Assembly: GCA_017432665.1 (NCBI GenBank)
Contig: JAFRIS010000036.1
Span: 1 to 49,061 of the forward strand
Direction: 5' to 3'
Origin: Bacilli bacterium
Lineage (GTDB): Bacteria > Bacillota_I > Bacilli_A > RF39 > UBA660
DNA length: 49,061 nucleotides
This document shows positions 1,921-48,318 of this stretch, in pieces (the stretch's first letter is position 1; each line of letters opens with the position of its first letter). Under the pieces are notes generated by a model. That model was not told where the DNA came from. It ran no database searches and saw only the letters and a program-made list of their open reading frames with translations. Both the position numbers and the translations under genes were made by a program.

Positions 1921-1950
1921 ATAGCCAATTTATTGAGGGGGAAATATTTT

Positions 1951-3498: not shown

Positions 3499-4129
3499 TA
3501 CTGAAAAGAAAAGAATATCTCCCTATGTAACAGCCTTTATAGGCGCTACTATTACATTGATTGGAGGATTCTTTCTTTCGTATAACTATGTACAAGCAAA
3601 AAAAATAATTGCTTATGATTATATGGCTAATGCCTTCTATAATGGTGAAGAAGTAATTAATATTACTGAAGAAGAAAAAACAAAGAAACCCGTAGAAGAG
3701 ACTAAATTACCAGAAGAAGTTACTAATGAATACATTGGTTATTTAATCATACCAAAGATAAATTTAACGAAAGGATTTTTGGATGTTCGTTCAACCGAAA
3801 ATGATGTTGAAAAGAATATCTTAGTAGTAGAAGGTTCTAATTATCCAGATACTGACAGAGGTAATTTAATCTTAGCAGGACATTCTGGTACCGGTTGGAA
3901 AGCATTCTTTAATGAATTATACCAACTACAGGTGAATGATACTGCATATGTTACATATAAAGGAAAAAAATATGTTTATAGAATAACTAATATTTATAAA
4001 CAACCAAAGACTGGTAAATTAGCAATATATAGAAATTATGATAAGAATACATTAACATTAATTACATGTACAAATAATGATTCTTTAACTCAAACTATTT
4101 ATATTGCTGAATTAGTAAGTGTTGAATAA
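3473..4129 (+). CDS. Sortase, probably dedicated to the upstream adhesin
   Basis: A membrane-anchored transpeptidase that cleaves sorting signals and links proteins to the wall. The N-terminal membrane segment (about residues 17-38) precedes the sortase core with IPKINL, the catalytic His in LAGHS (His137) and the catalytic Cys in LITCTNND (Cys199). The Arg normally found about 8-12 residues after the Cys is not visible: the equivalent place reads LTQTIYIAEL, with Gln207. The gene begins inside the end of the adhesin gene (GTG 3473, with ATG 3479 as an equally possible start), so the pair is translationally coupled and probably works as enzyme and substrate. The VPDTA signal upstream loosely resembles the LPNTA used by class D sortases, but the class is not certain. 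Confidence 0.9.
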   Translation: MEMQEKLNNTEKKRISPYVTAFIGATITLIGGFFLSYNYVQAKKIIAYDYMANAFYNGEEVINITEEEKTKKPVEETKLPEEVTNEYIGYLIIPKINLTKGFLDVRSTENDVEKNILVVEGSNYPDTDRGNLILAGHSGTGWKAFFNELYQLQVNDTAYVTYKGKKYVYRITNIYKQPKTGKLAIYRNYDKNTLTLITCTNNDSLTQTIYIAELVSVE

Positions 4130-30886: not shown

Positions 30887-33196
30887 ATGACTAATTTTAT
30901 TAAAAAGAATATAGGCCTAATAATCGCAGTGTTTATTGTACTAGGCCCAGTTATTGACTTACTAACTGGTTTATGTCTTCATATGTTAAATATTAATCTT
31001 ACATTAGGTATTATTCTAAGAGTATTATTTCTATTATTTATTTGTTATACTACAGTTTTTATTTATCATAAAAGGAAACTATTATGGCCATATTTATTAA
31101 TAGGTATTTATGGAATATTTTATGTGATAGGAATCATTTGTTATAAAAATGGAGTAGGTTTATTTTCTGAAATACAAGGATTAGTTAAGGTGTTTTATTT
31201 CCCAATTTTATTCTTATCTTTATATAGTATTAGAGATGAAATTAATATTAGTAAGATGACCTTGTTCACGACACTATTTTTATATTTAATTTTTATATTT
31301 GTACCAATCTTATTAGGAGTAGGTTTTGAAACTTATAAGATTACTAAAGCAGGTACATTAGGTTTTTATAATTCAGCTAATGAAATAAGTGGAATTATCT
31401 CTCTATTAACTCCAATTATGTTTACTGTTTTAGTATCTTCTAGAAAGATAGTTCCTAAAATGTTATTAGGTTTAATGTACTTCGTTGTTATATTAATGAT
31501 AGGTACTAAGACACCTTTAATATCATTAACTATCACAGTTATGGCTATTATCATATATTTATGGCGAGATTACTTTATAAAAAAACAATATAAAAAAATT
31601 CTTATCTCAGTCATAGTATTATTAGTGGGAGTAAGTGCTTTATTAGTAATAATTCCTAAAACTAATTTTTATAAAAATATTGAGACCCATTTAAACTATT
31701 TAGAATTAGAAAATGTAGGAGAAGTATTTGAAGATGAAGAATTAGTGGATCATTTTATCTTTAGCCAAAGATTAACCTTCTTAGATAGAAAAGCCACTTT
31801 ATATCGTAAAGCAAATGTTTATCAAAAACTATTTGGAATAGGTTATTTAAAGAAAAATGGTAAACCTACTAAGTTAATAGAAATGGATTACTTTGATATT
31901 TTTTATAATCATGGAATAATTGGATTCTTAATCTTCTTTAGTATAACTTTATATGTATTATGGAAAGTATTAAGAAAAGAAAAGACTCTTAATTTTGAAA
32001 GTTATATGACTTTTATTAGTTTATTATTAATTATTTTCTTATCATTCTTTACGGGTCATATTATTACTGCTCCAGCAGTAAGTTTAATTGCAATTATATT
32101 AATTCTAGGGTTTCCTAAACGTAAGAAGAAAAGACTATTATTTACTTCATATAGTATGGATGTAGGTGGAATAGAGAAAGCTTTATTGAATTTAGTTAAT
32201 AGAATAAATACTGATAAATATGATGTAACTATTGTTTTAGAAAAGAAGCATGGGGTTTTCTTAGATAAAATTAAAGATGAAGTTAGAGTAGAAGAGTGCA
32301 AAGTAAGTAATAATAAAAATGTCTTATTAAGAAAATTAATTAATGGTACTCATAAACTAGTATTTAAAATATTTGAATATCATAATTATGACTTTAGTTG
32401 TTGTTACGCAACATATAGTTATAGTAGTTCAAAACTAGCGTTAATGTCTTCTAAGAATACGGCTTTCTATGTTCATAATGACTATCGTACTATTTATAAG
32501 AATGATGCAGACTTCTATGAATTCTTTAATAGTAGAGAGATAAATAGATATAAAAATATTATCTTTGTATCTAATGAAAATAGAGAAGGTTTTGTTAAAA
32601 AGTATCCTGAATTAAAGAAGAGATGTAGAGTCTTTAATAATTTTATTAATACTGAAGAAATTATTAAACAGAGTCAAGAAAACATCAAGGAGAAAAAAGA
32701 TAAGAAACACACATTATTTATGTTTGTTGGAAGATTAGATGATGATGCAAAGAAAATTTCTCGTCAAATTAATTTAGTAAAAGAAATAGATGATATTGAT
32801 TTATGGATCATAGGAGATGGTCCTGATCGTCACAAATATGAAAAAGAAGTTAAAGATAATAAATTAGAGAAAAGAGTAACTTTTATGGGTAAAAAGTCTA
32901 ATCCATTCCCATATATGGCTCAAGCAGATTATGTAATTTTAACTTCTGATTATGAAGGTTTTCCAGTAACTTATTTAGAAGCAATTACTCTAAATAAAGA
33001 TATTATTACGACATTCCCAACTAGTGATGATCAAGTTGATATTCATGAATATGGCTATGTTATTAGTAAAGATCAAACTAAGATGGTTAAAGAAGTAAAA
33101 GATATCTTAAAAAAGAAAAAATCTAGACTAGAAATTGATTTGGAAGCTGGTCAAGTAGAAAGAATGAAACAATTAGAAAAAATATTTAATGAATAG
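30887..33196 (+). CDS. O-antigen ligase-like membrane protein fused to a GT4 glycosyltransferase
   Basis: A 769-residue protein in two parts. Residues 1-410 hold about ten to twelve membrane segments with a large outer loop (about 265-345), the layout of the O-antigen ligase/polymerase (WaaL/Wzy) family. Residues 416-769 form a cytoplasmic GT-B glycosyltransferase of family 4, with SYSMDVGGIEKAL, FVGRLDDDAKK, LWIIGDGPDRH and the donor-binding SDYEGFPVTYLEA. A polymerase/ligase and a cytoplasmic transferase in one chain is uncommon. It would tie chain building inside to transfer outside. It is first in the locus; the GT2 gene starts 9 bases after its stop. Confidence 0.86.
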   Translation: MTNFIKKNIGLIIAVFIVLGPVIDLLTGLCLHMLNINLTLGIILRVLFLLFICYTTVFIYHKRKLLWPYLLIGIYGIFYVIGIICYKNGVGLFSEIQGLVKVFYFPILFLSLYSIRDEINISKMTLFTTLFLYLIFIFVPILLGVGFETYKITKAGTLGFYNSANEISGIISLLTPIMFTVLVSSRKIVPKMLLGLMYFVVILMIGTKTPLISLTITVMAIIIYLWRDYFIKKQYKKILISVIVLLVGVSALLVIIPKTNFYKNIETHLNYLELENVGEVFEDEELVDHFIFSQRLTFLDRKATLYRKANVYQKLFGIGYLKKNGKPTKLIEMDYFDIFYNHGIIGFLIFFSITLYVLWKVLRKEKTLNFESYMTFISLLLIIFLSFFTGHIITAPAVSLIAIILILGFPKRKKKRLLFTSYSMDVGGIEKALLNLVNRINTDKYDVTIVLEKKHGVFLDKIKDEVRVEECKVSNNKNVLLRKLINGTHKLVFKIFEYHNYDFSCCYATYSYSSSKLALMSSKNTAFYVHNDYRTIYKNDADFYEFFNSREINRYKNIIFVSNENREGFVKKYPELKKRCRVFNNFINTEEIIKQSQENIKEKKDKKHTLFMFVGRLDDDAKKISRQINLVKEIDDIDLWIIGDGPDRHKYEKEVKDNKLEKRVTFMGKKSNPFPYMAQADYVILTSDYEGFPVTYLEAITLNKDIITTFPTSDDQVDIHEYGYVISKDQTKMVKEVKDILKKKKSRLEIDLEAGQVERMKQLEKIFNE

Positions 33197-33205
33197 AGGT
33201 GTAGT

Positions 33206-34126
33206 ATGCCTAAATTTAGTATAGTTATTCCTGCTTATAATGTAGAACAATACATTGGTAGATGTTTAGAAAGTGTTTTTAATCAAACTAGTAAAGACTA
33301 CGAAGTTATTGTCGTTGATGATGGTTGTACTGATAAAAGTATTGAAATTGCCAAAGACTATGATGTAAAGATTGTTACTAGTAAGCATGTAAGTGTCAGC
33401 GAAGCTAGAAACCTTGGCGCTAAGAAAGCTAAAGGAGAATACTTACTATTCTTAGATAGTGATGATTATTGGGATAAAGACTTGTTAAAGGAAATAAAAA
33501 AATCATTAGATAATAATCCTGATTTAGTAAGATTCCAAGTGCGAACAGTTACTAATAATTATGAAACTGTAGATTATGAAGAAACTACTTTTAAAGGAAA
33601 AACAGGAGTAGAAGCATTTGCTATTATTTCTAGATTTCATTTTGTTGAAAGTGTTTGGTGTTATGCCATAAAACGAGAATATTATGAAAAAGAAAAGTTT
33701 AGTTTTGCTAAAGGTAAGGTTCACGAAGACTTTGGTTTAACTCCATTAATAATTATTAAAGCTGGTAAAGTAAACTCAATTAATTATATTGGTTATAATT
33801 ATTATCGTCGTCAAGGTAGTATTATGAATCAACCTGATTATGAATGGACTAAGCATAAAGTAAATGATTTTTATAATCACTATTTGTTTTTAAGTAAAGA
33901 AATAAATAAGACTGATTTAGATAGTAAGCTATTTAAAAGTTTTATTGCGAATAGTTTGATTTTAAAAATATGTGAATTAAAAGGAAAAGATTATTTAGAA
34001 TATAAAAAGAAATTAAAAGAACATCGAGTTTATGATTATTTATTAACTAATACTTTTGGTAGAAAAATAAAGAAATTATTGTTCATGATAAGTCCAAAAT
34101 TTACCAACAAATTAATTAACAAGTAG
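33206..34126 (+). CDS. GT2-family glycosyltransferase
   Basis: A 306-residue cytoplasmic glycosyltransferase with a GT-A fold. The N-terminal IVIPAYNVEQYIGRCLESVFNQT, the VVDDGCTDKS nucleotide-binding motif and the LFLDSDDYW DxD motif are typical. The acceptor region is EDFGLTPLII and the C-terminus is helical. The sugar transferred cannot be read. AGAGGTG lies before ATG 33206. Operon spacing to both neighbours is 9-12 bases. Confidence 0.92.
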   Translation: MPKFSIVIPAYNVEQYIGRCLESVFNQTSKDYEVIVVDDGCTDKSIEIAKDYDVKIVTSKHVSVSEARNLGAKKAKGEYLLFLDSDDYWDKDLLKEIKKSLDNNPDLVRFQVRTVTNNYETVDYEETTFKGKTGVEAFAIISRFHFVESVWCYAIKREYYEKEKFSFAKGKVHEDFGLTPLIIIKAGKVNSINYIGYNYYRRQGSIMNQPDYEWTKHKVNDFYNHYLFLSKEINKTDLDSKLFKSFIANSLILKICELKGKDYLEYKKKLKEHRVYDYLLTNTFGRKIKKLLFMISPKFTNKLINK

Positions 34127-34138
34127 AAAGGAAACAAT

Positions 34139-36226
34139 ATGATTAACGGATATGATTTTGATGAAACAATTTATGATGGTGACTCTTCAGTAGACTTTTA
34201 TAAGTATTCTCTAAAGAGAAATAAAAAAGTATTATTACAACTTCCAATACAAATATTTGGAGTAATGTTATATATACTAAAGATAATTGATAAAACCAAA
34301 TTTAAAGAGTATGTTTTCTCATTTTTAAAGAGAATAGATAATGTAGATGATTATATTAAAGACTTTTGGAAGAGTCATTATAAAAATATAAAACCTTGGT
34401 ATTTAGAACAAAAACAATCTACCGATGTGATAATATCTGCTTCTCCTGAATTTTTATTAAAACCCTTAGAAAAGAAATTAAAGGTAAAAGTAATTGCGAG
34501 TAGAGTAGATAAAAAAACAGGAAAGTTCTTATCTAAAAACTGTCATGATCATGAAAAAGTAAAAAGATTTCATGAAGAAGAAAAGAATAAAAAGTTAAAG
34601 GCTTTCTATTCTGACTCAATGGTTGATAAACCAATCATGGACATCTCGAAAGATGCTTATCTTGTAAGAAAAGATATTGTTTATAATTTAAAAGAAGATA
34701 GAGAAGGTAAGATTTCTAAATATTTAAAAATTGACAAGAAATTGTATAAAGCCGTAATTCTATTCTTAGTAATTCCAATAATAATTCAATTGTTTTTTTG
34801 GTACAATAGATTGATATCAATACCAGGTATTATTTTGTTGTTAATCGCAACATATCTTGTATTTAAAAAATATAAAGTTTTAGATTTTGATGATTATTAT
34901 AAAATATTTAATAAGAAAAAGATTATTATTTTAATACTATTAATTGTAATAATAAATGTATTATCTGGAGCTGGAGGAATCTTTCCTCAAAACTGGGACT
35001 ATCATAGTCGTAATGCTATATTTAGAGATTTAATTGAAAGTTCTTGGCCTGTTAGATATGATTATTCATCTCTTCCATTTGAACAAAGTAAAATTGGTAA
35101 TAGTGGAATATTAAATTATTATTTTGCTTTTTGGTTACCAGGTGCCATAGTTGGTAAAATTACTAATTTTAAAATAGCAAGTTTATTTATGCTATTGTGG
35201 CAAATAATAGGAGTAACTTTATTCTTCTATTACGTTTGTCGTTTCTTTAGAAATACAAAGTATAGATATTATTTCATATTTATTGCATTTGGTGGATTAA
35301 ATGTAATTGGATATATAATAATGAATAAATATTGGGGATTTCCAATACATCCAATAGGAAGTACACATATTGATACAAGTATGGGATTATTTTGTATGTC
35401 ATCTTTTGTTACTCAACTATTCTGGGTATTTAATCAAAGTATTCCTGCTTGGATAGTGGTGATGCTATTTTTGCAAGAAAAAGACTATCGAATATGTGGT
35501 TACTTATTTGCTTTATTAGTTCCCTTTGCTCCATTTCCAATGGTTGGATTTTTATACATAATAATGTGTATGATAATCTTTGGAAAGAATTTAGATAAAA
35601 TTATTGATTTGAATAGAATCAAAGAACTAATTTCTATAGAAAACATTTTTGGTTGTTTAGCAGTATTACCAATGGTTTTTATGTATACTTTAAATAAGTC
35701 TAGTAAAGGAAGTTATATATTATATGCTATGGAAAGTGGTCGAGAGAAAGAACTAATATTTAGCTATATAATGTTTGTTTTACTAGAATTTCTTGTATAC
35801 ATAGTAATTATTAATAAAAAGAATTATAAGTATATTATTATGTGTTTTGCTTTCTTTACTGTTATCTCATTATTCTATATCGGAGGAGCTGATTTAGGTA
35901 ATAGAGCAACAATTCCATTATTAATTGTTTTATACTTGTTAGTATGTGATAGATTAAATATTATTGATAAAGTAAATAAAAAGGAAATGCTTGTTCAGAA
36001 AGCAACAATTGTAATACTTTTAGTTGCTTCAGTTACAAATTTTAATGAGATATATAGATCAGTAGAAAATGAAATATCATATCGTAAAATCAATAAATCT
36101 AATTTCGCAGATTCATATTATTCATTTAAGACATTTGAAGGTAAAGAATGTGCTAGATTTATAACTAATTTTATAGTTAAAGATGATAAAACAAATAAAA
36201 AATTACAATGGCTTATGAGAAAATAA
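34139..36226 (+). CDS. HAD phosphatase fused to a GT-C-like polytopic membrane protein
   Basis: A 695-residue protein. Residues 1-195 form a complete HAD phosphatase: motif I DFDET (Asp6, Asp8), motif II IISASPEF, the motif III Lys near HEKVKRF and motif IV YSDSMVDKP (Asp159, Asp163). From about residue 204 there are ten or more membrane segments with a GT-C-type first outer loop, NWDYHSRN (Asp287), as in enzymes that use polyprenyl-phosphate sugars. Two genes downstream is a UbiA-family enzyme of the phosphoribosyl-polyprenol type. The HAD part is therefore a candidate for removing the 5-phosphate of polyprenyl-phosphoryl-phosphoribose, with the GT-C part using the product. Domain calls are firm; the pathway is inferred. 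Confidence 0.85.
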   Translation: MINGYDFDETIYDGDSSVDFYKYSLKRNKKVLLQLPIQIFGVMLYILKIIDKTKFKEYVFSFLKRIDNVDDYIKDFWKSHYKNIKPWYLEQKQSTDVIISASPEFLLKPLEKKLKVKVIASRVDKKTGKFLSKNCHDHEKVKRFHEEEKNKKLKAFYSDSMVDKPIMDISKDAYLVRKDIVYNLKEDREGKISKYLKIDKKLYKAVILFLVIPIIIQLFFWYNRLISIPGIILLLIATYLVFKKYKVLDFDDYYKIFNKKKIIILILLIVIINVLSGAGGIFPQNWDYHSRNAIFRDLIESSWPVRYDYSSLPFEQSKIGNSGILNYYFAFWLPGAIVGKITNFKIASLFMLLWQIIGVTLFFYYVCRFFRNTKYRYYFIFIAFGGLNVIGYIIMNKYWGFPIHPIGSTHIDTSMGLFCMSSFVTQLFWVFNQSIPAWIVVMLFLQEKDYRICGYLFALLVPFAPFPMVGFLYIIMCMIIFGKNLDKIIDLNRIKELISIENIFGCLAVLPMVFMYTLNKSSKGSYILYAMESGREKELIFSYIMFVLLEFLVYIVIINKKNYKYIIMCFAFFTVISLFYIGGADLGNRATIPLLIVLYLLVCDRLNIIDKVNKKEMLVQKATIVILLVASVTNFNEIYRSVENEISYRKINKSNFADSYYSFKTFEGKECARFITNFIVKDDKTNKKLQWLMRK

Positions 36227-36250
36227 ATAAAAAAAGAGAGTAGTGAGAAT

Positions 36251-37939
36251 ATGAAAAAAGAGTTTTTTAAATTGAAAAATAAATCAATGACTTTGTTTTT
36301 TATGTTATGTATGTATTTCTTATGCATCTTAGTGTTATACTCTATATTTCAAATATTGAATATTAATAGTGTTTTACCACTAATTGGCATAGTATCTATC
36401 GTTATTCCAATTATATATATTTTGAAAAAAGAAAGAAATATTGCTTTAGCTATAATCTTTTTATTAATAGTGACTATTATACCTTTTTTAAGTACTAAAA
36501 TATATGATTTGTCAATTGATGGTAATTCATACCATAAAACTGCTATTGCTTATATAAAGAATGGTTGGAATCCATTATATGAAAACGCTAGAGATTTTCA
36601 AAAGCATAATTCTAATGTTATTCCAATTGATAAGAAATCAAAGGTAGATGTTTGGATTGAACATTATCCAAAAGCATCTTGGATTTATGCTGCCACAATG
36701 TATAGTTTAACTGGTTGTATAGAAGCAGGAAAAGCCTTAATTATTATACTAAGTATTATGTTAATAATTATTACTTATAACATATTAAGAAAAATATTAG
36801 ATAAAAATTGGAGTATAGTATTTACTGCTTTCTTAGCTTTAAATCCAATTGTTTTATCACAAATATTTACATATTATGTCGATGGAATTATGGGAATATG
36901 TTTCTTAATTCAATTACTATTATTATTCATGGTTGATCCAAAGAAGAAACCAGATATTCCATTGTGGATTTCTATTGTATCAATATGTGCAATTTTCTGT
37001 AATTTGAAATTTACTGGATTAATGTGTTCAGGAGTAATAGCTGCAGTATTTTATTTCTATTGGTTAATAAGATATAAAGATATAAAAATATTTAAGAAAT
37101 TAACTATTTTATTCTCAATTGTATATATAGTATCAGTATTTCTTGTAGGATCTAATTCATATGTTAAGAATACAATTGATCATATGAATCCGTTATATCC
37201 ATTAATAGGTAAAAATAAGATTGATATTGTTACTACCATGCAACCAAAAGATTTTGCTAAAATGAGCAAGTTTGAAAAATGGTATTATTCTATGTTCTCT
37301 AAAACGGAAAACACAAATTATTATCAAAAGAGGCCTACTCTAAAGAATCCATTTATGATATATAAATCAGAACTTGATGCTTTATATATACCAGATACTA
37401 GAATAGGTGGATTCGGACCTTTATTTGCATTATCTTTTATCTTGTCGCTCATTGTATTTATTCCAATGTTTATTATATTTATGAAGAAAGAAAAAAAGAA
37501 TTTACAATACATTCTAATACCTATCGGTACTACTTTAATAACAATGCTATTACTAGGTGAGAGTTGGTGGGCAAGGTATGTTCCTCATTTCTATTATTTA
37601 GTTATAGGAAGCTTTATATTAAGTGTTTATTTGAAAAAATACATTAAACATTCTAAGTTTCATATGACAATTAACATAATTTGTTTATTAGTAGTATTTA
37701 TTAATTTATGTATCTTTGGGAGAATAGTAAAAGATAGTATAATAGTAGCTTATAAAAATAATAAAGATTTAGCGGAGTTAAAGTATACTGATGATTTAAA
37801 AATATATTTTGATGATGAAGAGTATGGATACCAATATCTTCTGAATGATAAGGGAATAAAATATACTAAAGTAGAAATGGATAATCAAAAGAATTTTGAA
37901 TACAAATTTAGTTGGAGACTTGAGGTGAAAAGAAAATGA
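36251..37939 (+). CDS. GT-C-like polytopic membrane glycosyltransferase
   Basis: A 562-residue membrane protein with about eleven hydrophobic segments. A first outer loop contains YDLSIDGNSYH (Asp86, Asp90), and a long loop later holds WIEHYPKASW. This arrangement matches GT-C enzymes, which transfer sugars from polyprenyl-phosphate donors outside the membrane, although no precise family can be named. The C-terminal 60 residues are soluble. It ends in TGA overlapping the ATG of the UbiA gene (ATGA), so it is tightly coupled to the presumed donor-making enzyme. Confidence 0.72.
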   Translation: MKKEFFKLKNKSMTLFFMLCMYFLCILVLYSIFQILNINSVLPLIGIVSIVIPIIYILKKERNIALAIIFLLIVTIIPFLSTKIYDLSIDGNSYHKTAIAYIKNGWNPLYENARDFQKHNSNVIPIDKKSKVDVWIEHYPKASWIYAATMYSLTGCIEAGKALIIILSIMLIIITYNILRKILDKNWSIVFTAFLALNPIVLSQIFTYYVDGIMGICFLIQLLLLFMVDPKKKPDIPLWISIVSICAIFCNLKFTGLMCSGVIAAVFYFYWLIRYKDIKIFKKLTILFSIVYIVSVFLVGSNSYVKNTIDHMNPLYPLIGKNKIDIVTTMQPKDFAKMSKFEKWYYSMFSKTENTNYYQKRPTLKNPFMIYKSELDALYIPDTRIGGFGPLFALSFILSLIVFIPMFIIFMKKEKKNLQYILIPIGTTLITMLLLGESWWARYVPHFYYLVIGSFILSVYLKKYIKHSKFHMTINIICLLVVFINLCIFGRIVKDSIIVAYKNNKDLAELKYTDDLKIYFDDEEYGYQYLLNDKGIKYTKVEMDNQKNFEYKFSWRLEVKRK

Positions 37940-38808
37940 AGAAATATATCAAATTAATTAGAGTAAAACACTGGATAAAAAACTTATTAGTATTTTTACC
38001 GATATTTTTCAGTATTAATATTTTTAATATGGATTTATTAAAAATATCGTTCTTAGCTTTTGTTGTATTTTGTTGTACTTCTAGTATCGTTTATATTATT
38101 AATGATATGAGTGATATTGAAAAAGATAGATTACATCCAATTAAAAAACTTCGTCCTTTAGCAAGTGGAGAAGTTTCTAAAAAACAAGCTAGAATAGTAT
38201 TAGTTATATTAGGAATAATAGTAATATCTCTAATGGCTTATTTCTATATAAAATTAAAGAATATTGGAGTTTTCTTAATACCTATAATTTATATTGTATT
38301 AAATATCCTATATAGTAAAGGATTAAAAAATATACCTATTATAGATATCGTAATTCTAGTATCTGGCTTTGTATTTAGAGTAATGTATGGTGGAGTAGTA
38401 ACTGATATTGAGGTTTCTAAGTACTTATACTTAATGATTATTTTTGGAGCGTTCTATCTAGGTTTTGGTAAAAGACGTAATGAGATTATTAAGAATGGTA
38501 ATAAATCTAGAAAAGTATTATCCTTATATAGCAAAGATTTTCTTGATAAGAACATGTATGTAATGGTAGGTCTAGCAATTGTTTCATATACATTATGGAC
38601 AGTTGATGCTGCTACAATTGCGAGAGTAGGTAATGATTACTTATTCTGGACTATTCCATTATTAATAGTTACTTTATTACTATATAGTTTGAATATAGAA
38701 GGAAATTCTCATGGGGATCCAATTGAAGTAATCTTATCAAATAAATTACTTATTGGAACATGTCTATTCTATGGAGTAGTAATGTTTATAATACTTTATA
38801 TTATTTAA
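37936..38808 (+). CDS. UbiA-family prenyltransferase resembling decaprenyl-phosphate phosphoribosyltransferase
   Basis: A 290-residue membrane enzyme with about eight to nine membrane segments. RVKHWIKNLLVFLP at the N-terminus and the ND-x2-D-x3-D-x2-HP-x-K-x2-RP motif (Asn56 to Arg73) are those of the subgroup that contains mycobacterial Rv3806c, which joins phosphoribose from PRPP to decaprenyl phosphate. A second region with LGFGKRRNEI lies in the middle loop. The likely reaction is formation of polyprenyl-phosphoryl-5-phosphoribose; with the HAD domain two genes upstream this would give a pentose donor. No DprE1/DprE2-type epimerase is seen in the window. It is the last gene before a strong terminator. 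Confidence 0.87.
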   Translation: MKKYIKLIRVKHWIKNLLVFLPIFFSINIFNMDLLKISFLAFVVFCCTSSIVYIINDMSDIEKDRLHPIKKLRPLASGEVSKKQARIVLVILGIIVISLMAYFYIKLKNIGVFLIPIIYIVLNILYSKGLKNIPIIDIVILVSGFVFRVMYGGVVTDIEVSKYLYLMIIFGAFYLGFGKRRNEIIKNGNKSRKVLSLYSKDFLDKNMYVMVGLAIVSYTLWTVDAATIARVGNDYLFWTIPLLIVTLLLYSLNIEGNSHGDPIEVILSNKLLIGTCLFYGVVMFIILYII

Positions 38809-38828
38809 AGAGACTATGTCTCTTTTTT
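38807..38828 (+). terminator. Terminator after the UbiA gene
   Basis: AAAGAGAC / GTCTCTTT stem with a three-base loop and T run, overlapping the stop codon. Confidence 0.85.
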
Positions 38829-38833
38829 ATTTC

Positions 38834-38862
38834 TATACAAATAATTAAAAATTAGATATAAT
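38834..38862 (+). promoter_or_regulatory. Promoter of the gtrB-type operon
   Basis: TATACA at 38834-38839, 17-base spacer, TATAAT at 38857-38862, 22 bases before the ATG; AAAGGAG lies between. Confidence 0.65.
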
Positions 38863-38884
38863 TAATTAAGAAAGGAGTATTAAT

Positions 38885-39838
38885 ATGAATAAAAAAGAAA
38901 TGATTACTCTAATTATTCCTTGCTTTAATGAAGAAGAAGCAATTCCTCTTTTTTATACTGAAACTGATAAAGTAACAAAGAAAATGAAAAATTTAGATTT
39001 TGAATTTTTATTTATAGATGATGGTTCTAATGATAAAACATTAGAAGTTTTAAGAAAATTATCAAAAAAAGACTCTCGAGTAAGATATATATCTTTTTCT
39101 AGAAATTTTGGTAAAGAAGCTGGTATGTTTGCCGGTCTTGAAAATAGTAAAGGTGATTATGTAGCTATTATGGATGTTGATCTACAAGACCCTCCAGAGA
39201 AATTAATTGATATGTATCATGGAATTAAAGAAGAAGACTATGACTGTGTAGCATTATATACTAAGACTCATGAAGGATATAGTTTTATAAGAAAAGGGCT
39301 TACTAATCTTTGGTATAAATTAGTTGATAAAATGTCTAAATCAAAACAGATGCCAGGTGCTAGAGACTTTAGATTAATGACTAGACAAGTAGTAGATGCA
39401 ATTATCGCTATGCCTGAATATAACCGTTATACTAAAGGTATGTTTGGTTTTGTTGGGTTTAAAACTAAATGGATTGAATATGAAGCACCAAATCGTGCTG
39501 TTGGGACTTCAAAATTTAATTTAAGAAAACTAATTAAATATGCATTAGAAGGAATAGTAGCTTATTCAACATCTTTACTAACATTGTCTGCATATATTGG
39601 TTTATTATTTTGTTTAGTAGCCTTTATTACTATAGTTATAATTGTTATTAAGACATTAATTTGGGGAGATCCAGTTAGTGGTTGGCCATCATTGGCCTGT
39701 TTAATAGTATTCTTGGGAGGAATACAATTATTCTTTTTAGGAATTATTGGTATGTATTTATCTAAAATATACTTAGAGGTAAAACATCGTCCAATATATA
39801 TTGTAAAAGAAACTGAGGGGACAAAAAATGAAAAGTGA
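38885..39838 (+). CDS. GtrB/DPM1-type polyprenyl-phosphate glycosyltransferase (GT2)
   Basis: A 317-residue GT2 enzyme with a C-terminal pair of membrane segments (about 228-300), the layout of GtrB/YkcC proteins that make undecaprenyl-phosphate-glucose or a similar hexose donor. Motifs: IIPCFNEEEAIPLF, FIDDGSNDKT, SFSRNFGKEAGMFAGL, MDVDLQDPPE and the RNYRY-like YNRYTKGMFGF. The donor would be flipped and used by GT-C enzymes. No GtrA-type flippase is recognised in the window. It ends in TGA and overlaps the following GT2 gene by 11 bases. Confidence 0.92.
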   Translation: MNKKEMITLIIPCFNEEEAIPLFYTETDKVTKKMKNLDFEFLFIDDGSNDKTLEVLRKLSKKDSRVRYISFSRNFGKEAGMFAGLENSKGDYVAIMDVDLQDPPEKLIDMYHGIKEEDYDCVALYTKTHEGYSFIRKGLTNLWYKLVDKMSKSKQMPGARDFRLMTRQVVDAIIAMPEYNRYTKGMFGFVGFKTKWIEYEAPNRAVGTSKFNLRKLIKYALEGIVAYSTSLLTLSAYIGLLFCLVAFITIVIIVIKTLIWGDPVSGWPSLACLIVFLGGIQLFFLGIIGMYLSKIYLEVKHRPIYIVKETEGTKNEK

Positions 39839-40799
39839 TATAAGTATAATTGTACCTATTTATAATGCTGAAGACTATGTTGAAAATTGTATTAATTCTT
39901 TGATTAATCAAACTAAAACTGAAATAGAAATAATTCTTATAAATGATGGATCTACTGATTCTACTGATGGGATTATTAGAAAGTATAGCGATAAAAGAAT
40001 TAAATATTTTTCTAATAAAAATCAAGGAATAGGTAAAACCAGAAATTTTGGTATTTCTAAAGCTACTAGTAACTATATTATGTTTTGTGATAGTGATGAT
40101 TACTATGAACCTAACATGTGTGAAATTATGTATGATACTGCTAAAAAAGAAGATTTAGATTTAGTAATATGTGATTTTTATAGAGAATATGAAAATGGTA
40201 AAGTAGAACCAGAACATTTACCAACATTTAAGTATACTAATTTAGAAGAAATGCCTTCTCTTATTAGAACTATTAATTTAGCGCCATGGAATAAACTATA
40301 TAAAAAGTCTTTATTAATAGATAATAATATCTATTTCGAAGAAAATTTAAAATATGAAGACACACCATTTGTAGCTAAAGCGATAGGTTGTGCTACAAGA
40401 ATAGGTAAAGTTGATAAATGTCTAAATCATTATCTAATCCGTGAACAAAGTGAGACTACTGTGCGTGATAGACGTTGTTTTGATATCATTAAAATAATTG
40501 ATATTGTTAGATCTTACTATAAAGGAAAAAGATATCTCAAAGAAGACTTAGATAAATTAACAGTTAGAGTATTAACTAATTATACTATTCAACAACGTGT
40601 TCAAATAGATCCAAAAGTTGCGGATGAGTTTATAGATGAAGCTTTTGCTTATCTAAAGAAAGAAGTTCCAGACTATAAGAATAAAAAGTATTATGAAAAT
40701 CGTAGTGCTTTTAAAAGAAAGATTGAAAAAAGTAAGTTCTTAACAAAACTTTATTGTAAGACTTATCAAACTACAAAAAGAAAGGAATCAAAAAAATGA
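39828..40799 (+). CDS. GT2-family glycosyltransferase
   Basis: A 323-residue cytoplasmic GT-A enzyme: IIVPIYNAEDYVENCINSL, LINDGSTDSTDG and the FCDSDDYYEP metal motif, then APWNKLYKK and KYEDTPFV typical of cell-surface polysaccharide transferases. The C-terminal 60 residues are basic and helical. The start lies within the gtrB-type gene and the stop overlaps the next gene's ATG (ATGA), so three genes are translationally chained. Sugar specificity is unknown. Confidence 0.92.
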   Translation: MKSDISIIVPIYNAEDYVENCINSLINQTKTEIEIILINDGSTDSTDGIIRKYSDKRIKYFSNKNQGIGKTRNFGISKATSNYIMFCDSDDYYEPNMCEIMYDTAKKEDLDLVICDFYREYENGKVEPEHLPTFKYTNLEEMPSLIRTINLAPWNKLYKKSLLIDNNIYFEENLKYEDTPFVAKAIGCATRIGKVDKCLNHYLIREQSETTVRDRRCFDIIKIIDIVRSYYKGKRYLKEDLDKLTVRVLTNYTIQQRVQIDPKVADEFIDEAFAYLKKEVPDYKNKKYYENRSAFKRKIEKSKFLTKLYCKTYQTTKRKESKK

Positions 40800-42274
40800 A
40801 ATTCCTCCAAAAAACCGTACCAATAATATTTATATTGATGTTTAGTTATATCATAGTACTATTAGTTTTCTTTTCGAGTATGAAATATGTCGGTAAAGAA
40901 ACATTTATGTTACCAAATATCATTATTATTCCTATATTTGTATTGGTTCTTTTTGGCCTTGTTAAACTACCTAAGAAAAAAGATATTACTCGTAAAAAGT
41001 ATTATAAATATATAATAATTATTTCGATAGTGATTTATCTAATTCAATTATTAATTCAGCTATATGGAGCATTTAAAACTGGTTGGGATGCAGGATATGT
41101 TAATTTTTTATCTGATTGTTTTATTGAGAATAATAATAAGCTCTGTGAAACGGCTTATTTAACAAGATATCCTAATAATATAATGATTACTTTTATATTG
41201 ATTGTATTAAAAAAGATAACTTATCCAATTTTGGGAAAAAGATTAATTTTAGTATTAGCTGTTAATGCTTTATTAGTAAACTTATCAGGAGTTTTTGCAT
41301 CTTTAGTAGTAGATAATATAACTAAGAATAGAAGATTAGCTTTATCTACATATTATCTTAGTATACCATTAATATTATTATCTCCTTGGATTTTTGTTGC
41401 ATATACTGATACTTTTGCAATTATTTTCCCAATATTAATAGTTTATTTATATACTAAAAAAGATAGAAATAAATTAGATTTCTTCTTAATTGTCTTTTTA
41501 TCTATCTTTGGTTATTTTATTAAAGCAACGGTAGCTATAGTCCTTATAGCGATATTTATAATTGAAATATTTAATTTTAACAAAGCTAAGTTGAAAAAAA
41601 TTGGTTATAAACAATTAGCTATATACAGTATGCTATTTGTATTTGGTATAATAACACCTTTTCTTATAAAGAACTGTGCTCTTAGAATAATGCATTTTGA
41701 GAAAGATAATAGTGTTCCAGAATTCACTTTAGTTCATTATTTAGCTCTGGGTCAAAACAATGAGACTAATGGTGCATTTAGTGGAGATGATATGTACTAT
41801 TCATTAAATAATGGTATGGGTAATAATTATAATAGATTTAAAGAAAGATTATTTGGAAGAACGCCAAAAGAGCAAGTTGTATTTTTCTCTAAAAAAACGT
41901 TGTTGAATTTTAACAATGGAGCATTTGCCTATGGAAGAGAAGGATCATTCTATAGTGAAGTAAGAATTACTAGTGATAAAAAAGTTATCTTTGTTCGTAA
42001 TCTTTTCTATAAACAAGGTAAGTACTATAAGTATATATTACAAATACAACAATATTTATGGTTATTAGTAATTTTATTTATACCGTTTATAGTAAAAAAG
42101 AAAAATACAAAAGAAGAATTATTATTAATGACAGCTATAATTGGAATAACTCTATTCTTAGCAATATTTGAAGCTCGATCTAGGTATTTATATTGTTATG
42201 CACCGTTATTTGTAGCCTCAGCTGTTATGGGGATTAGTAATCTAAAAAAACGACTAATTAAAACGATTGATTAA
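40796..42274 (+). CDS. GT-C/GT39-like polytopic membrane glycosyltransferase
   Basis: A 492-residue protein with about eleven membrane segments. The first outer loop carries KTGWDAGYV (Asp98), the acidic motif expected for the catalytic base of GT39-like enzymes, followed by LTRYPNN. A large outer loop near residues 300-400 contains LGQNNETNGAFSGDD. It is coupled to the GT2 and gtrB-type genes, which makes it the natural user of the hexose donor made by the gtrB-type product. Annotation as a GT39 relative rests on topology and motif only. Confidence 0.78.
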   Translation: MKFLQKTVPIIFILMFSYIIVLLVFFSSMKYVGKETFMLPNIIIIPIFVLVLFGLVKLPKKKDITRKKYYKYIIIISIVIYLIQLLIQLYGAFKTGWDAGYVNFLSDCFIENNNKLCETAYLTRYPNNIMITFILIVLKKITYPILGKRLILVLAVNALLVNLSGVFASLVVDNITKNRRLALSTYYLSIPLILLSPWIFVAYTDTFAIIFPILIVYLYTKKDRNKLDFFLIVFLSIFGYFIKATVAIVLIAIFIIEIFNFNKAKLKKIGYKQLAIYSMLFVFGIITPFLIKNCALRIMHFEKDNSVPEFTLVHYLALGQNNETNGAFSGDDMYYSLNNGMGNNYNRFKERLFGRTPKEQVVFFSKKTLLNFNNGAFAYGREGSFYSEVRITSDKKVIFVRNLFYKQGKYYKYILQIQQYLWLLVILFIPFIVKKKNTKEELLLMTAIIGITLFLAIFEARSRYLYCYAPLFVASAVMGISNLKKRLIKTID

Positions 42275-42276
42275 TA

Positions 42277-42307
42277 AAAATACAAGTATAGTTTACTTGT
42301 ATTTTTT
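42277..42307 (+). terminator. Terminator after the GT-C gene
   Basis: A twelve-base-pair AT-rich stem (AAAATACAAGTA / TACTTGTATTTT) with a five-base loop and T run. Confidence 0.85.
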
Positions 42308-42319
42308 GGTACTAATTAG

Positions 42320-42325
42320 TATAAT
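42320..42325 (+). promoter_or_regulatory. -10 box of the exporter operon
   Basis: TATAAT with a poor -35 (TTGTAT, 17 bases upstream, inside the terminator). It lies 45 bases before the exporter start. Confidence 0.45.
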
Positions 42326-42370
42326 AAATATAGATGGAAAGTCGAGATATATACGAAAAGAGGTATGAAT

Positions 42371-43114
42371 GTGGAGAAGAATATTGCAATAAAAGTATCA
42401 CATGTCTCAAAAGATTTCAAATTATATTACGATAAGGCACATACTCTAAAAGAGAAAATATTATTCTTTTCTAAAAAGAATAAAAGTAAGAATGATATTT
42501 TACATGTACTTAAAGATATAAATTTAGAAGTTAAAAAAGGAGAAACAGTAGCTTTAATAGGTACTAACGGAAGTGGGAAGTCTACGTTATTAAAACTTAT
42601 GACTAAAATTATTTATCCTAATAAAGGAACTATTACTACTGATGGTAAATTAACTTCTCTTCTAGAATTAGGAGCAGGGTTCCATGAAGATTTTACTGGA
42701 AGAGAAAATATTTATTTTAATGCTTCTATATTTGGTTTGACAAGATCAGAAATAGATAAGAGAATTGATGATATCATTGAGTTCTCAGAACTAGGGGATT
42801 TTATTGATAATCCTGTTAGAACTTATTCTTCAGGAATGTATATGCGTCTAGCTTTTTCTGTTGCGATAAATGTTCAAGCAGAAATAATTTTAATAGATGA
42901 AATTTTAGCTGTTGGAGATCAACATTTTCAAGACAAGTGTTTTAAGAAGTTAATGGAATTAAAGGAATCAGGAAAAACGATAGTTATAGTTACTCATAGT
43001 ATGAATCAAGTAAGAAGTATTTGTGATAGAGCTGTATGGCTATATCAAGGTGAAATCAGGATGGATGGAAAAGTTTCAAAAGTTCTTGATGAGTATTTGA
43101 AGGTGTGTGGTTAG
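42371..43114 (+). CDS. wzt: ABC transporter ATP-binding protein for polysaccharide export (Wzt/TagH-type)
   Basis: A 247-residue ATPase that energises export of lipid-linked glycopolymers. Walker A GTNGSGKST (64-72), the signature YSSGM, Walker B ILIDEILAVGD and the switch His in VTHSM are intact, and the GAGFHEDFTGRENIY segment is specific to Wzt/TagH/RfbB ATPases. The start is placed at GTG 42371 because AGAGG lies 8 bases before it; the ATG at 42365 is in frame but only 3 bases from that box. The protein lacks the C-terminal carbohydrate-binding extension of some Wzt proteins. The permease gene follows with no gap. Confidence 0.93.
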   Translation: MEKNIAIKVSHVSKDFKLYYDKAHTLKEKILFFSKKNKSKNDILHVLKDINLEVKKGETVALIGTNGSGKSTLLKLMTKIIYPNKGTITTDGKLTSLLELGAGFHEDFTGRENIYFNASIFGLTRSEIDKRIDDIIEFSELGDFIDNPVRTYSSGMYMRLAFSVAINVQAEIILIDEILAVGDQHFQDKCFKKLMELKESGKTIVIVTHSMNQVRSICDRAVWLYQGEIRMDGKVSKVLDEYLKVCG

Positions 43115-43888
43115 ATGAAAGTATTTAAAGAATTATATAATTATCGTGAACTTCTAAAAACAACTATTAAGAAAGAGATAAGAGGTAAATATAAAGGCTC
43201 ATGGTTAGGTGTATTATGGACTTTCTTGAATCCATTATTAATGTTAGCTGTATATGCTTTTGTATTCCCATATATTTTAAGAGTAAATGTTGAAAACTAT
43301 ACTATCTTTATGATTGTAGCACTTATACCTTGGACATTCTTCACAACTGCAGTACAAACAGGTACTGGTTGTGTAGTAGCTAATGGTAATATTTTGAAGA
43401 AAGTTTATTTTCCAAGAGAAATAATTCCTATTTCTATTACTACATCACAATTAGTTAATTTCTTAATTACTTGTTTAATTATGTTTGTATTTATACTTGT
43501 TAGTGGAGTGGGTTTTACAAAACATGCACTTTTATTACCAGTTATAATAATAGTTCAATATGTTTTAACACTAGCAATTAATTTTCTATTATCGGCAATT
43601 ACAGTATTTGTTCATGATGTAGATCACTTTGTAAGTGTGGCTTTAACACTAGGATTTTATGCAACACCAATTGTTTATTTATCATCTATGTTACCTGCTA
43701 AATTCCAATGGGCTATGGTTGTAAATCCAATGGCAGTATTGGTAGAAGCTTATCGTGCAATTCTTTTCTACCACAAGATGCCGGATTTTCGCTTATTTGG
43801 TATTTGGGCAGTATTAAGTTTTGTTTTATTAGTAATTAATTATTTGATATTTAAGAAATTAGAAAAGAGTTTTGTAGAAGAATTATAA
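43115..43888 (+). CDS. wzm: ABC transporter permease for polysaccharide export (Wzm/TagG-type)
   Basis: A 257-residue ABC-2 type permease with six membrane segments. The N-terminal amphipathic gate helix region (KKEIRGKYKGSWLGVLWTFLNPLLML) and the TPIVYLSSMLPAKFQWAMVVNPM stretch are diagnostic for Wzm/TagG/RfbA. It begins on the base after the ATPase stop codon, so the pair is co-translated. It should form a channel for the glycopolymer built by the surrounding transferases. Confidence 0.94.
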   Translation: MKVFKELYNYRELLKTTIKKEIRGKYKGSWLGVLWTFLNPLLMLAVYAFVFPYILRVNVENYTIFMIVALIPWTFFTTAVQTGTGCVVANGNILKKVYFPREIIPISITTSQLVNFLITCLIMFVFILVSGVGFTKHALLLPVIIIVQYVLTLAINFLLSAITVFVHDVDHFVSVALTLGFYATPIVYLSSMLPAKFQWAMVVNPMAVLVEAYRAILFYHKMPDFRLFGIWAVLSFVLLVINYLIFKKLEKSFVEEL

Positions 43889-43908
43889 GATACATTACAT
43901 CTTTTTTT
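43887..43908 (+). terminator. Weak terminator-like hairpin after the exporter genes
   Basis: AAGAT / ATCTT with a seven-base loop and a seven-base T run. The stem is short, so partial read-through to the following gene is likely. Confidence 0.4.
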
Positions 43909-43953
43909 CATTAAATATTTATATTTATTGATATCATGAAGGTGAGGTTTGTT

Positions 43954-46260
43954 ATGAATTTTAAGAAAATACCAGGACAAAAAATAAAAAAGTATGGAGA
44001 TTTAATAAATAAAGAGAAACCAACAATAAGTATTGTTACACCGTATTACAATGGTGGAAAAACGATTGATGAAACATTTAATTCAGTAATGAATCAAACA
44101 TATCCATACTTTGAATGGATTATTGTAAACGATGGTTCAAAAGATGAAGAATCTAATAAAAAAATAAAAGAAGTAGTAAAGAGAGATTCTCGTTTAAAAT
44201 ATTTTGAAAAAGAAAATGGGGGACCAGCTCAAGCAAGAGATTTTGGTATTAAGAAATGTAGCAAAGATACTAAATATGTCTTTTTCCTAGATGCTGATGA
44301 TCTAATTGATCCAACTATGTTGGAATGTTTATATTGGACATTAGAAACTCATCCAGATGCTTCTTTTGCATACACAGCATTAATTAATTTTGGAGATGAA
44401 GAATATCTATGGGAAAAATACTTAACAATTGAACAAGAAAAAGAAGAAAATCTTATTAACATTACATCATTAGTAAGAAAAGCGGATTTATTAGAAGTTG
44501 GTTGTTTTGGTATCAAAGAAAAAGCTATGTATGAAGACTGGAATCTATGGTTAAAATTACTAGCTGCTGGTAAAAAACCATTACGTGTTAGTGCACCATT
44601 ATTTTGGTATCGTAGGCAAGGGGTAAGTGAATTGTCTAGAGCTAATAATAATAAAACACAAGCTATGAAATATGTTACTGAAACAGCTAGTAAAGTTGCT
44701 GATGATATAGTAGAACCTATTCAATATCCAAGATATGGCGATAATCATGCAACATGTAAAGAATATGATTTAATAGTTCCTGATTATAATAAAGATAAAA
44801 GAAAAACTATTCTTTATATATTTCCATGGATGGCAATAGGAGGAGCTGATTTCTTTAACTTAGAATTAATAAAGAGATTACCTCAAGATAAATTTCGTGC
44901 GATAGTTTTATTGACAACCCCAAATAGAAATCCATTGCGTCAAGATTTTGAAGATTATGCAGAAGTTTATGATATGTCATCATTCCTAGATAGAATAGAC
45001 TATCAAACTTTTACAGATTATATTATTTCTTCTAGAAAAGTAGATTTAGTGGTTGTTTCAAATACTGAATATGGATATTATATGGTTCCATATTTAAAAG
45101 CTAAGCATCCAGAAACACCATTTATTGACTATATTCATTCTGTAGATCATGCTGATCCAAGAAAAGGGTTTGGAAGATGCTCAAGGGATGTTGATCAATA
45201 TTTATATGGTACATATTGCTGCAATAGTTTTACTAAAAAGCAATTAAAAGAGGATTTTCAAAAGAAAAAAGTTGATACTGTATATATAGGTACTAATGAA
45301 GAAAAATTTAATCCAACTAAATTTAACAAAGAAGAATTAAAAGAAAAGTATGGATTACCAAGAGACAAAAAAATAATTTCTTTTGTTGCAAGAATGTCAG
45401 AAGAAAAAAGACCATTGATGTTTATAGAAATTGCTAAAAGAATTTATGCAAAAGACTCTAATACATTCTTCGTAATGGCTGGAAGTGGACCATTAATGTC
45501 TGAAGTAAAAGCAGCCGTAAATGATAATTTTAAATTGTTAGGAATGATAAATAAAACAGAAGAAGTATATGCCGTTAGTGATTTAACAATTAATTGTTCT
45601 TCTTTAGAAGGATTAGCATTAACTTCATATGAATCTTTAGCAATGTCTGTTCCTGTTGTATCAACCGATGTTGGAGGACAAACAGAATTAATAGATGAAA
45701 CTGTTGGCGGTATTGTTCATTATAATAAGAATTGCAGTAAAGAAGTTTTCCAAAAAGAAATTAATCAATATGTTACAGAGACAATTAGAGTATTAAATGA
45801 TTTACCAAAAATCAAAAAGAATTGTCGTAATAAAATACTAGAGGGATTTACTTTAGATATAATGAAAAATAATATGGAGAAAATCTTTAATGAAGCAATT
45901 TCAAGCAATTTAAAAGAGGAAAAATATAACATTGATACTACAACTTATGAATTAGCTTGTGAATCGTTTAATGGATTATATTATAATTATACAAATGATT
46001 ATTATGAGACTAATTTAGGAGTTTATTTAACTGCTACTGCTAGTAAACATCAAAGACTATATCGTCATATTAGAACAAGATTAGAAGGCTTTGGTGCAGT
46101 AAAAGAAGGTAAAGAAATAATTGAATTTATTAGATCATTTAAAAAGACAAGTATCGATGTTGGAAAAACATTTATAAAATTCTGTAAGGCATTTGTTGCC
46201 GGAATAAGAGTATTATTAAAAATGCTTAAAAGGATTATTACTAAACCTTTTAGGAGATAA
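43954..46260 (+). CDS. GT2-GT4 fusion glycosyltransferase
   Basis: A 768-residue protein with two catalytic domains. The GT2 domain spans about 20-250: IVTPYYNGGKTIDETFNSVMNQT, VNDGSKDEESN, FLDADDLIDP and EDWNLWLKL. The GT4 (GT-B) domain spans about 285-660: WMAIGGADFF, SFVARMSEEKRPLMFIEIAK, MAGSGPLM and the donor motif CSSLEGLALTSYESLA. The basic helical tail (about 730-768) could bind membrane. The start is ATG 43954 because AAGGTGAGG lies just upstream; the ATG at 43936 precedes that box. Two transferases in one chain suggest sequential addition of sugars to the same acceptor. Confidence 0.9.
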   Translation: MNFKKIPGQKIKKYGDLINKEKPTISIVTPYYNGGKTIDETFNSVMNQTYPYFEWIIVNDGSKDEESNKKIKEVVKRDSRLKYFEKENGGPAQARDFGIKKCSKDTKYVFFLDADDLIDPTMLECLYWTLETHPDASFAYTALINFGDEEYLWEKYLTIEQEKEENLINITSLVRKADLLEVGCFGIKEKAMYEDWNLWLKLLAAGKKPLRVSAPLFWYRRQGVSELSRANNNKTQAMKYVTETASKVADDIVEPIQYPRYGDNHATCKEYDLIVPDYNKDKRKTILYIFPWMAIGGADFFNLELIKRLPQDKFRAIVLLTTPNRNPLRQDFEDYAEVYDMSSFLDRIDYQTFTDYIISSRKVDLVVVSNTEYGYYMVPYLKAKHPETPFIDYIHSVDHADPRKGFGRCSRDVDQYLYGTYCCNSFTKKQLKEDFQKKKVDTVYIGTNEEKFNPTKFNKEELKEKYGLPRDKKIISFVARMSEEKRPLMFIEIAKRIYAKDSNTFFVMAGSGPLMSEVKAAVNDNFKLLGMINKTEEVYAVSDLTINCSSLEGLALTSYESLAMSVPVVSTDVGGQTELIDETVGGIVHYNKNCSKEVFQKEINQYVTETIRVLNDLPKIKKNCRNKILEGFTLDIMKNNMEKIFNEAISSNLKEEKYNIDTTTYELACESFNGLYYNYTNDYYETNLGVYLTATASKHQRLYRHIRTRLEGFGAVKEGKEIIEFIRSFKKTSIDVGKTFIKFCKAFVAGIRVLLKMLKRIITKPFRR

Positions 46261-46273
46261 TAGGTGTATGGAA

Positions 46274-47212
46274 ATGAAAAAGAAAAATGAAGCTTTAGTA
46301 TCAGTAATTATTTCTACTTTTAATCGAAAAGATTATATTGGAAAAGCAATTGATAGTGTTTTAATGCAAACTTATAAAGAAGTAGAAATTATTATTATTG
46401 ATGATTATTCAAGTGATGGAACAGGAGATTATATTAAGGAAAATTATAATCTTCCTAATATTCATTATTATCGTAACGAAAAGAATTTAGGGTGTGGAAT
46501 AAGTCGTAAAAAAGCTATGACTTATGCCAAGGGTAAATATATTAATTTCTTGGATGATGATGACCGATTCATTGATAAGACATATTTTGAAACAGCAGTA
46601 AAAAGATTAGAAAAAGAAAAAAATTTAGCTATCGTCTGTGGTTCACATATTGTTTATGATGTTATTAATGAAGTACGAACAGAAAAAAAATTTCCTTATA
46701 AAGACACCGTTGATAAAAGAGAATTATTTATTCATTTTTCTGATTCTGAATATCCAAAACCAATTATTAGTGTAGCTATAATTCGTAGAAAGGCTCTAGA
46801 AAAAGCTAAATACGAAGAAATGAAAATATTAAATGATACAACTATCTTCTTAAGAGTAATACTTTTTGGAGATATGGGCTTTATTAAAAAGCCACAAGCT
46901 GAATATCTAGTTCATGGAAATAATATTTCCTTCAATTGTAAGACGGATTTTATTATTGATAATTTAGATGAAAAATATAAAGTCTTTAAAATAGTAGAAA
47001 ATAGCAACAAGTATACAAAAGAAGAATTAGATAAATGGTTAGAAAAACAATTGGATATAACTATTATTTACTTTATAAATGGTTCTAAACCCAACTATTT
47101 TAATTTTAGAAAGATAATTAAATGGTATAAGAATAATGTGGGTAATAGTGAAAAAATAAAAGAATTTAAAAAAATATATAAAGAGGGGAAAAGAAAATCT
47201 AAAGAAATATAA
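46274..47212 (+). CDS. GT2-family glycosyltransferase
   Basis: A 312-residue GT-A enzyme with VIISTFNRKDYIGKAIDSVLMQT, IIDDYSSDGTGD and FLDDDDRF. The NDTTIFLRV acceptor region is present and the C-terminus is Lys-rich. The start is placed at ATG 46274, seven bases after AGGTG; ATG 46268 is too close to that box but is in frame. It follows the GT2-GT4 fusion by 13 bases and the pyruvyl transferase gene follows 22 bases later. Substrate unknown. Confidence 0.9.
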   Translation: MKKKNEALVSVIISTFNRKDYIGKAIDSVLMQTYKEVEIIIIDDYSSDGTGDYIKENYNLPNIHYYRNEKNLGCGISRKKAMTYAKGKYINFLDDDDRFIDKTYFETAVKRLEKEKNLAIVCGSHIVYDVINEVRTEKKFPYKDTVDKRELFIHFSDSEYPKPIISVAIIRRKALEKAKYEEMKILNDTTIFLRVILFGDMGFIKKPQAEYLVHGNNISFNCKTDFIIDNLDEKYKVFKIVENSNKYTKEELDKWLEKQLDITIIYFINGSKPNYFNFRKIIKWYKNNVGNSEKIKEFKKIYKEGKRKSKEI

Positions 47213-47234
47213 ACTAATGGAAAGGGAAATAGTT

Positions 47235-48317: not shown

Positions 48318-48318
48318 T

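Follow-up and report, generated by a model that had tools for sequence, protein, structure and literature searches.

How might an uncultured bacterium of the phylum Bacillota build a lipid-linked sugar, when its surface-polysaccharide cluster encodes a HAD phosphatase fused to a glycosyltransferase-like membrane domain next but one to a UbiA-family protein? The question arises from a stretch of 49,061 nucleotides (contig JAFRIS010000036.1, assembly GCA_017432665.1; hereafter the window) of a Bacilli bacterium (RF39; UBA660). The source genome is a metagenome-assembled genome (MAG) of 1.19 Mb from a gut-type Bacillota with low GC content (27%), and it is 71% complete. The cluster spans positions 30887-48317. 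In its middle sit three genes, all on the plus strand: a HAD-GT-C fusion gene (34139-36226, 695 amino acids, aa), after a gap of 24 bp the gene for a second GT-C protein, GTC2 (36251-37939, 562 aa), and the UbiA gene (37936-38808, 290 aa), which overlaps with GTC2 by ATGA. A first-pass annotation, made from the sequence alone, had suggested that these proteins make, dephosphorylate and use a polyprenyl-phosphate pentose outside the membrane. We conclude that the operon probably serves to produce a pentofuranose, most likely ribofuranose, on polyprenyl phosphate and to decorate a surface polysaccharide with it.

The UbiA Protein Resembles Rv3806c

Among curated families, the UbiA protein matched best to the decaprenyl-phosphate phosphoribosyltransferase family NF008977 of NCBIfam (199.5 bits, 7.9e-59), although the model cut-off of 234 was missed; NF008978 gave 198.2 bits. 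The solved structure of Rv3806c (PDB 8j8j) matched at 2.9e-37 and aligned over residues 4-273. Residues that bind phosphoribosyl pyrophosphate (PRPP), Mg and lipid phosphate in Rv3806c have been listed (PMC10994848), and we mapped R22, K28, Y70, N73, D77, D81, K87, R90, Q135, Y138, K143, Y157, K191 and K208, where D81 is our addition as a further conserved motif aspartate. Twelve of these 14 residues are identical in the UbiA protein, bearing out the Rv3806c motif set read in it at first pass. The exceptions are Q135, replaced by N123, and Y157, replaced by F145; phenylalanine at the latter position is found in some mycobacteria too. With Rv3806c as the biochemical precedent for this step (PMC10994848), the protein is predicted to be a UbiA-fold polyprenyl-phosphate phosphoribosyltransferase (PPPRS), which would transfer phosphoribose from PRPP to polyprenyl phosphate.

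It is hardly credible that the protein is a quinone, heme or aromatic prenyltransferase with unrelated neighbors; clustering with quinone or heme enzymes is what the first-pass annotation had itself named as fatal to its proposal. Both kinds of enzyme share the Pfam family PF01040, to which the UbiA protein belongs, but ubiA_proteo and heme o synthase reached 38 and 25 bits compared to 199.5 for the phosphoribosyltransferase family, and the PRPP-site residues are conserved. Furthermore, the gene is surrounded by a glycan cluster, and HAD and GT-C genes are found alongside its relatives.

A Complete HAD Domain Is Joined to a GT-C-Like Membrane Protein

The HAD-IB phosphatase domain of the fusion (34139-34708, residues 1-190) was recognized by Pfam HAD (1.7e-14 at residues 5-167) and by TIGR01490 (1.9e-13). 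All seven catalytic positions are kept (D6, D8, T10, S100, K140, D159, and D163), and the predicted fold matches HAD phosphatases, with a best Z of 18.0 to 3fvv over 188 residues. The domain is probably a phosphatase for polyprenyl-phosphoryl-5-phosphoribose. A signal peptide is absent and, judging from the lengths and charges of the loops, the HAD domain faces the cytoplasm and the GT-C motif loop lies outside. Dephosphorylation should therefore precede flipping of the lipid. Thus, the main part of the first-pass proposal stands, but dephosphorylation outside the membrane is unlikely.

The remainder of the fusion (34709-36223, residues 191-695) is a membrane domain with about 12 predicted transmembrane (TM) helices, here called GTCf. 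This half (approximately residues 195-695) resembles stand-alone, HAD-free homologs of 484-518 aa in other genomes; the fusion therefore joins a complete protein to a complete HAD. An invariant QxxD...RNA motif is found in the long loop after TM3. In the fusion, D287, within NWDYH, is an invariant aspartate. Among the structural matches listed, GTCf was weakly similar to the GT-C enzyme ALG12 (Z 8.8 over 283 residues), and a profile comparison linked it to GTC2 (E 7.7e-5, probability 62%). The fusion was modeled from a smaller alignment set, since larger combined alignments put stand-alone GT-Cs onto the HAD. Even so, the GT-C half was modeled poorly. A sequence search of solved structures and a scan of viral contigs with the fusion gave no match. 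The intact HAD described at first pass is present, and its membrane partner is probably, if not firmly, GT-C-like and a candidate pentosyltransferase. The fusion is no assembly artefact, since an independent MAG (locus L053 of our collection) has a colinear HAD-GT-C gene with 72% DNA identity over 34138-36209, unbroken across the junction.

GTC2 Has a GT-C Fold

The protein encoded directly upstream of UbiA (36251-37939) has 13 predicted TM helices and was modeled with AlphaFold (predicted local distance difference test, pLDDT, 82.6; predicted template modeling score, pTM, 0.89). ArnT was its first fold match (Z 16.7 over 370 residues), and AftA, AftD, AftB, and Emb enzymes were among the structural matches. 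GT-C-type proteins made up the VIA list as far as Z 7.9, and the next row dropped to 4.7. Like the motif of GTCf, the invariant DGNxYH of GTC2 lies in the loop that follows TM3. GTC2 is not covered by any glycosyltransferase family of Pfam: the sole match of the window protein is a sub-cut-off acyltransferase, and its L058 relative had no Pfam match. The expectation that a second GT-C-like gene is coupled to UbiA was therefore confirmed by fold.

HAD and GT-C Genes Accompany UbiA in Related Loci

When 84,980 species genomes were scanned with an alignment of five UbiA sequences, 80 loci were returned, of which 79 were usable. The set comprises the top matches to the query rather than a random sample, and gene calls in it are mechanical open reading frames (ORFs). 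A HAD gene was found at most two genes from UbiA in 45 of 79 loci, and just three more HAD matches appeared out to ten genes. GTC2 was the commonest recognized GT-C partner of UbiA in the 79 loci. In 392 genomes of the phylum, GTC2 was detected in six, UbiA in seven and both in five (Fisher p 1.7e-9), a test that ignores relatedness and in which four of the five shared genomes had supplied query sequences. These counts agree with the association assumed at first pass.

Within the 45 loci the HAD was free in 33 (about 185-220 aa), fused to GtrA in seven and fused to a GT-C in five loci (six proteins). Pfam confirmed GtrA in the fused tails examined, and such chains are possibly phosphatase-flippase fusions. 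HADs fused to a GtrA-type domain were seen at L060, L068, L072, L096, L114, L127, L128, and L030. Close HAD relatives also occur in genomes without this UbiA (L027, L029, and L033-L040), some of them beside housekeeping genes.

A Proposed Route to Lipid-Linked Ribofuranose

Based on the gene content we propose the following route. On the cytoplasmic side of the membrane, UbiA would move 5-phosphoribose from PRPP to a polyprenyl phosphate, probably undecaprenyl phosphate, and the cytoplasmic HAD domain would then take off the 5-phosphate. A flippase would turn the lipid over, for which a GtrA-type protein encoded elsewhere in the genome is a candidate; two GtrA genes are indeed found there. Finally, the GT-C domain of the fusion and/or GTC2 would attach the pentose to the polymer that the neighboring ABC transporter exports. 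The HAD-GT-C fusion would keep the second and the last enzyme, on opposite faces of the membrane, in one protein.

The DprE1-type oxidase domain PF04030 (ALO domain) was found neither in the window genome nor in 22 relatives, while the Corynebacterium control was positive; absences across the incomplete window genome were judged by family searches. Also, UbiA has no epimerase gene beside it in the window. Consequently, ribofuranose is the likeliest sugar and is favored over arabinofuranose on genomic grounds, in support of a suggestion made at first pass. Polyprenyl-phosphate ribose might instead be epimerized to xylofuranose or arabinofuranose by a short-chain dehydrogenase/reductase or another oxidoreductase encoded elsewhere. 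Epimerized variants are documented (PMC11127046), and more than a quarter of the window genome is missing from the assembly, but given the lack of both an epimerase gene beside UbiA and a DprE1-type oxidase domain in the 23 genomes we regard this outcome as rather unlikely.

Several observations weigh against the route as a whole. The HAD family is also present in genomes without UbiA of this type, and GTCf homologs were found in three near-complete genomes that lack it, so neither is specific by itself. Conversely, 32 of 79 UbiA loci had no HAD in the stretch examined (eight of them close to a contig end), and the genomes of L061, L109, and L084, when checked, yielded no HAD at all; such organisms may rely on a different phosphatase. 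The model of the GT-C half was poor (pTM 0.54), and no MATE or GtrA family match was found among window ORFs of at least 100 aa. In addition, two donor-making enzymes, UbiA and a PgfS-like protein, are encoded together with three GT-C genes, so donors and transferases may pair in other ways. The PgfS-like protein (38885-39838, plus strand) is a GT2 with a TM anchor that scored 292 bits against NCBIfam PgfS, under its cut-off of 500, and it probably makes a second polyprenyl-phosphate sugar donor.

This arrangement allows a different assignment, in which the UbiA-HAD donor serves GTC2 alone, GTCf uses a hexose donor from the PgfS-like GT2, and the fusion is a by-product of recombination with uncoupled activities. 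Such a division of labor would fit the GTCf homologs in near-complete genomes without this UbiA, which lie near GT2 genes, the rank of GTC2 as the commonest recognized GT-C neighbor of UbiA, and the mosaic HADs described below, which are a sign of recombination rather than of designed coupling. However, UbiA, HAD and GTCf form a trio in L120 and are arranged identically in L106 and L112, and none of the three loci has a PgfS-like gene in the stretch examined. Since no other recognized glycan gene adjoins the trio in L120, these loci tie GTCf to the UbiA donor. A Ruminococcus relative is among the carriers of this trio. HAD fusions moreover recur independently, and a probable intrinsic terminator directly 3' of the UbiA gene (38807-38825, plus strand; 8-bp stem, 3-nt loop, T-rich tail; fold -7.7 kcal/mol, z -2.85) splits UbiA from the PgfS-like gene. 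We therefore consider the separate use of the two donors unlikely and retain the shared pathway.

The HAD Domain Recurs on Different Membrane Partners

Joining the phosphatase to the transferase in one chain had been called unusual at first pass. It is unusual, but it is not unique to the window: HAD fusions to several kinds of GT-C, and to GtrA as well, turn up repeatedly. In a maximum-likelihood tree, the window HAD formed one clade (98/92) with those of L051, both L053 copies and L071. Its members are fused to four GT-C types, namely GTCf (window and L053a), GTC2 (L051), a fourth type (L053b), and a PMT_2-like protein (L071). A further HAD fused to GTC2, that of L074, belongs to the other main HAD clade, and the HAD-GtrA fusions require several changes on the tree. 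A single origin of all HAD fusions was hence rejected as the simplest reading, although several forks are weak.

The way in which partners change is visible in related loci. The window and L051 are colinear, at 82% DNA identity, as far as 34618 and then once more from 36266 onward; L051 is without the intervening GT-C module, and its HAD is joined directly to GTC2. At the protein level, the window HAD is closest to L051 before residue 146 (82%), whereas after it the closest is L053a (60%) compared to 37% for L051. The L051 HAD in turn switches to L054 and L053b after the break. The alignments show these HADs to be mosaics broken near residue 146, in which the HAD end and the transferase move as a unit behind a shared HAD start. 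Transferase modules are thus exchanged behind a shared HAD half, be it by active switching or by slow evolution, and this offers a testable route by which surface-glycan clusters could replace their terminal transferases.

At L053 (9790-13973), two HAD-GT-C fusion genes lie in tandem and differ in their GT-C modules. Their HAD starts differ at four positions in the first 420 nucleotides and then diverge, which points to a very recent event of duplication or gene conversion.

The HAD is best read as an interchangeable module of the pathway, which relatives carry as a free protein or joined to GtrA or to other GT-Cs. Catalytic residues were lost in two fused HADs, both near UbiA: one on a GT-C (L071, 11886-13877) and one on GtrA (L065, 10863-11780). 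The L065 genome has a second HAD match on the same contig in an open frame, and in the L071 genome the dead HAD alone was found. Few as they are, these two cases hint toward a non-catalytic role such as docking. Tentatively, the HAD might bind the cytoplasmic side of UbiA and draw its fused partner, a GT-C or a GtrA flippase, into one complex, and recombination within the HAD would then swap the transferase while donor supply is kept. We see this as possible rather than likely; if true, the dead HADs of L071 and L065 would have been kept for docking alone.

Comparison With Known Systems

The type of pathway has been known since 2024, when a three-component pentofuranosylation system of Citrobacter youngae O1/O2 was described biochemically (Kelly et al., 2024; PMC11127046), a study that the first-pass annotation had not named, and that work provides a biochemical precedent for each enzymatic step. 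Common to both systems are an Rv3806c-type UbiA, a HAD phosphatase and a GT-C encoded together in a surface-glycan cluster with key residues intact, and ribose needs no DprE1. The Gram-negative Citrobacter, however, has its HAD on the same chain as UbiA, a MATE protein as flippase, and a GT136 enzyme with a carbohydrate-binding module as GT-C. In the Bacillota window the partner of the HAD is a GT-C instead (in relatives also GtrA), the cluster has no flippase match, and the GT-Cs match no Pfam glycosyltransferase family. By the anatomy of its parts, the window system would therefore be a variant that works like the three-component system, and with no flippase match in the cluster it would not be a full member.

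The mycobacterial decaprenyl-phosphate arabinose pathway (Rv3806c, Rv3807c, DprE1/E2, Emb/Aft) has the same first enzyme and GT-C end enzymes of common fold. Its phosphatase, however, is not a HAD (PMC11127046), and no DprE1-type oxidase was found in the window genome. Bipartite PRPP-dependent ribofuranosyltransferases, composed of gPRT and a HAD PRP domain (Kelly 2022, as summarized in PMC11127046), likewise pair a HAD phosphatase domain with a phosphoribosyltransferase. According to that summary, they transfer ribose straight to the glycan in the cytoplasm and use no lipid carrier, unlike the window system. GtrA/GtrB/Gtr(type) glucosylation is also extracytoplasmic and works with a lipid-linked donor, a GtrA-type flippase (here in relatives) and a GT-C-type end enzyme. 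In the window, by contrast, the donor would derive from PRPP via UbiA and need a phosphatase, to which GtrA is fused in some relatives.

We found no open-access paper on HAD-GtrA or HAD-GT-C fusions in a search that left subscription journals and supplementary files outside. What appears to be new is the HAD-GT-C fusion and the recurrence of the same HAD on different partners. The pathway phosphatase has repeatedly been fused to membrane components, to UbiA in the published case and to GtrA and several GT-Cs in the window and its relatives, and this argues indirectly for a physical complex that reaches across both faces of the membrane. For the flippase step of the Citrobacter pathway the 2024 paper gives no direct experimental evidence (PMC11127046), and here the HAD-GtrA chains, as gene fusions, add an independent hint. 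Our data extend the three-component pathway to many uncultured Bacillota and suggest lipid-linked pentofuranose decoration in surface polymers whose sugar chemistry is unknown.

The Surrounding Gene Cluster

All further cluster genes are encoded on the plus strand. The cluster starts with an O-antigen-ligase-like domain fused to a GT4 in one ORF of 769 aa (30887-33196; Pfam PF13425 and PF00534), followed by a GT2 glycosyltransferase (33206-34126; PF00535) that ends 12 bp upstream of the fusion gene. Downstream of the PgfS-like gene are another GT2 (39828-40799; PF00535, 1.8e-39) and the third GT-C-like gene (40796-42274), which resembles TIGR03766 of NCBIfam (109 bits, under its cut-off of 500). 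A TagH/Wzt-like ATPase and a Wzm-like permease, recognized by family matches, form an ABC exporter pair (42365-43888) that probably exports the backbone polymer. Family matches identified the remaining glycan genes (43936-48317) as a GT2-GT4 fusion, a GT2 and a polysaccharide pyruvyl transferase; the first of these (43936-46260) holds both glycosyltransferases in a single ORF of 774 aa. A cell-wall-binding-repeat-like ORF (48318-49061), truncated by the contig end, lies 3' of the pyruvyl transferase gene. Far upstream, at 1861-4129, a gene for a surface protein with a thioester domain and SpaA repeats is directly followed by a sortase gene, and this surface protein is probably a covalently anchored adhesin.

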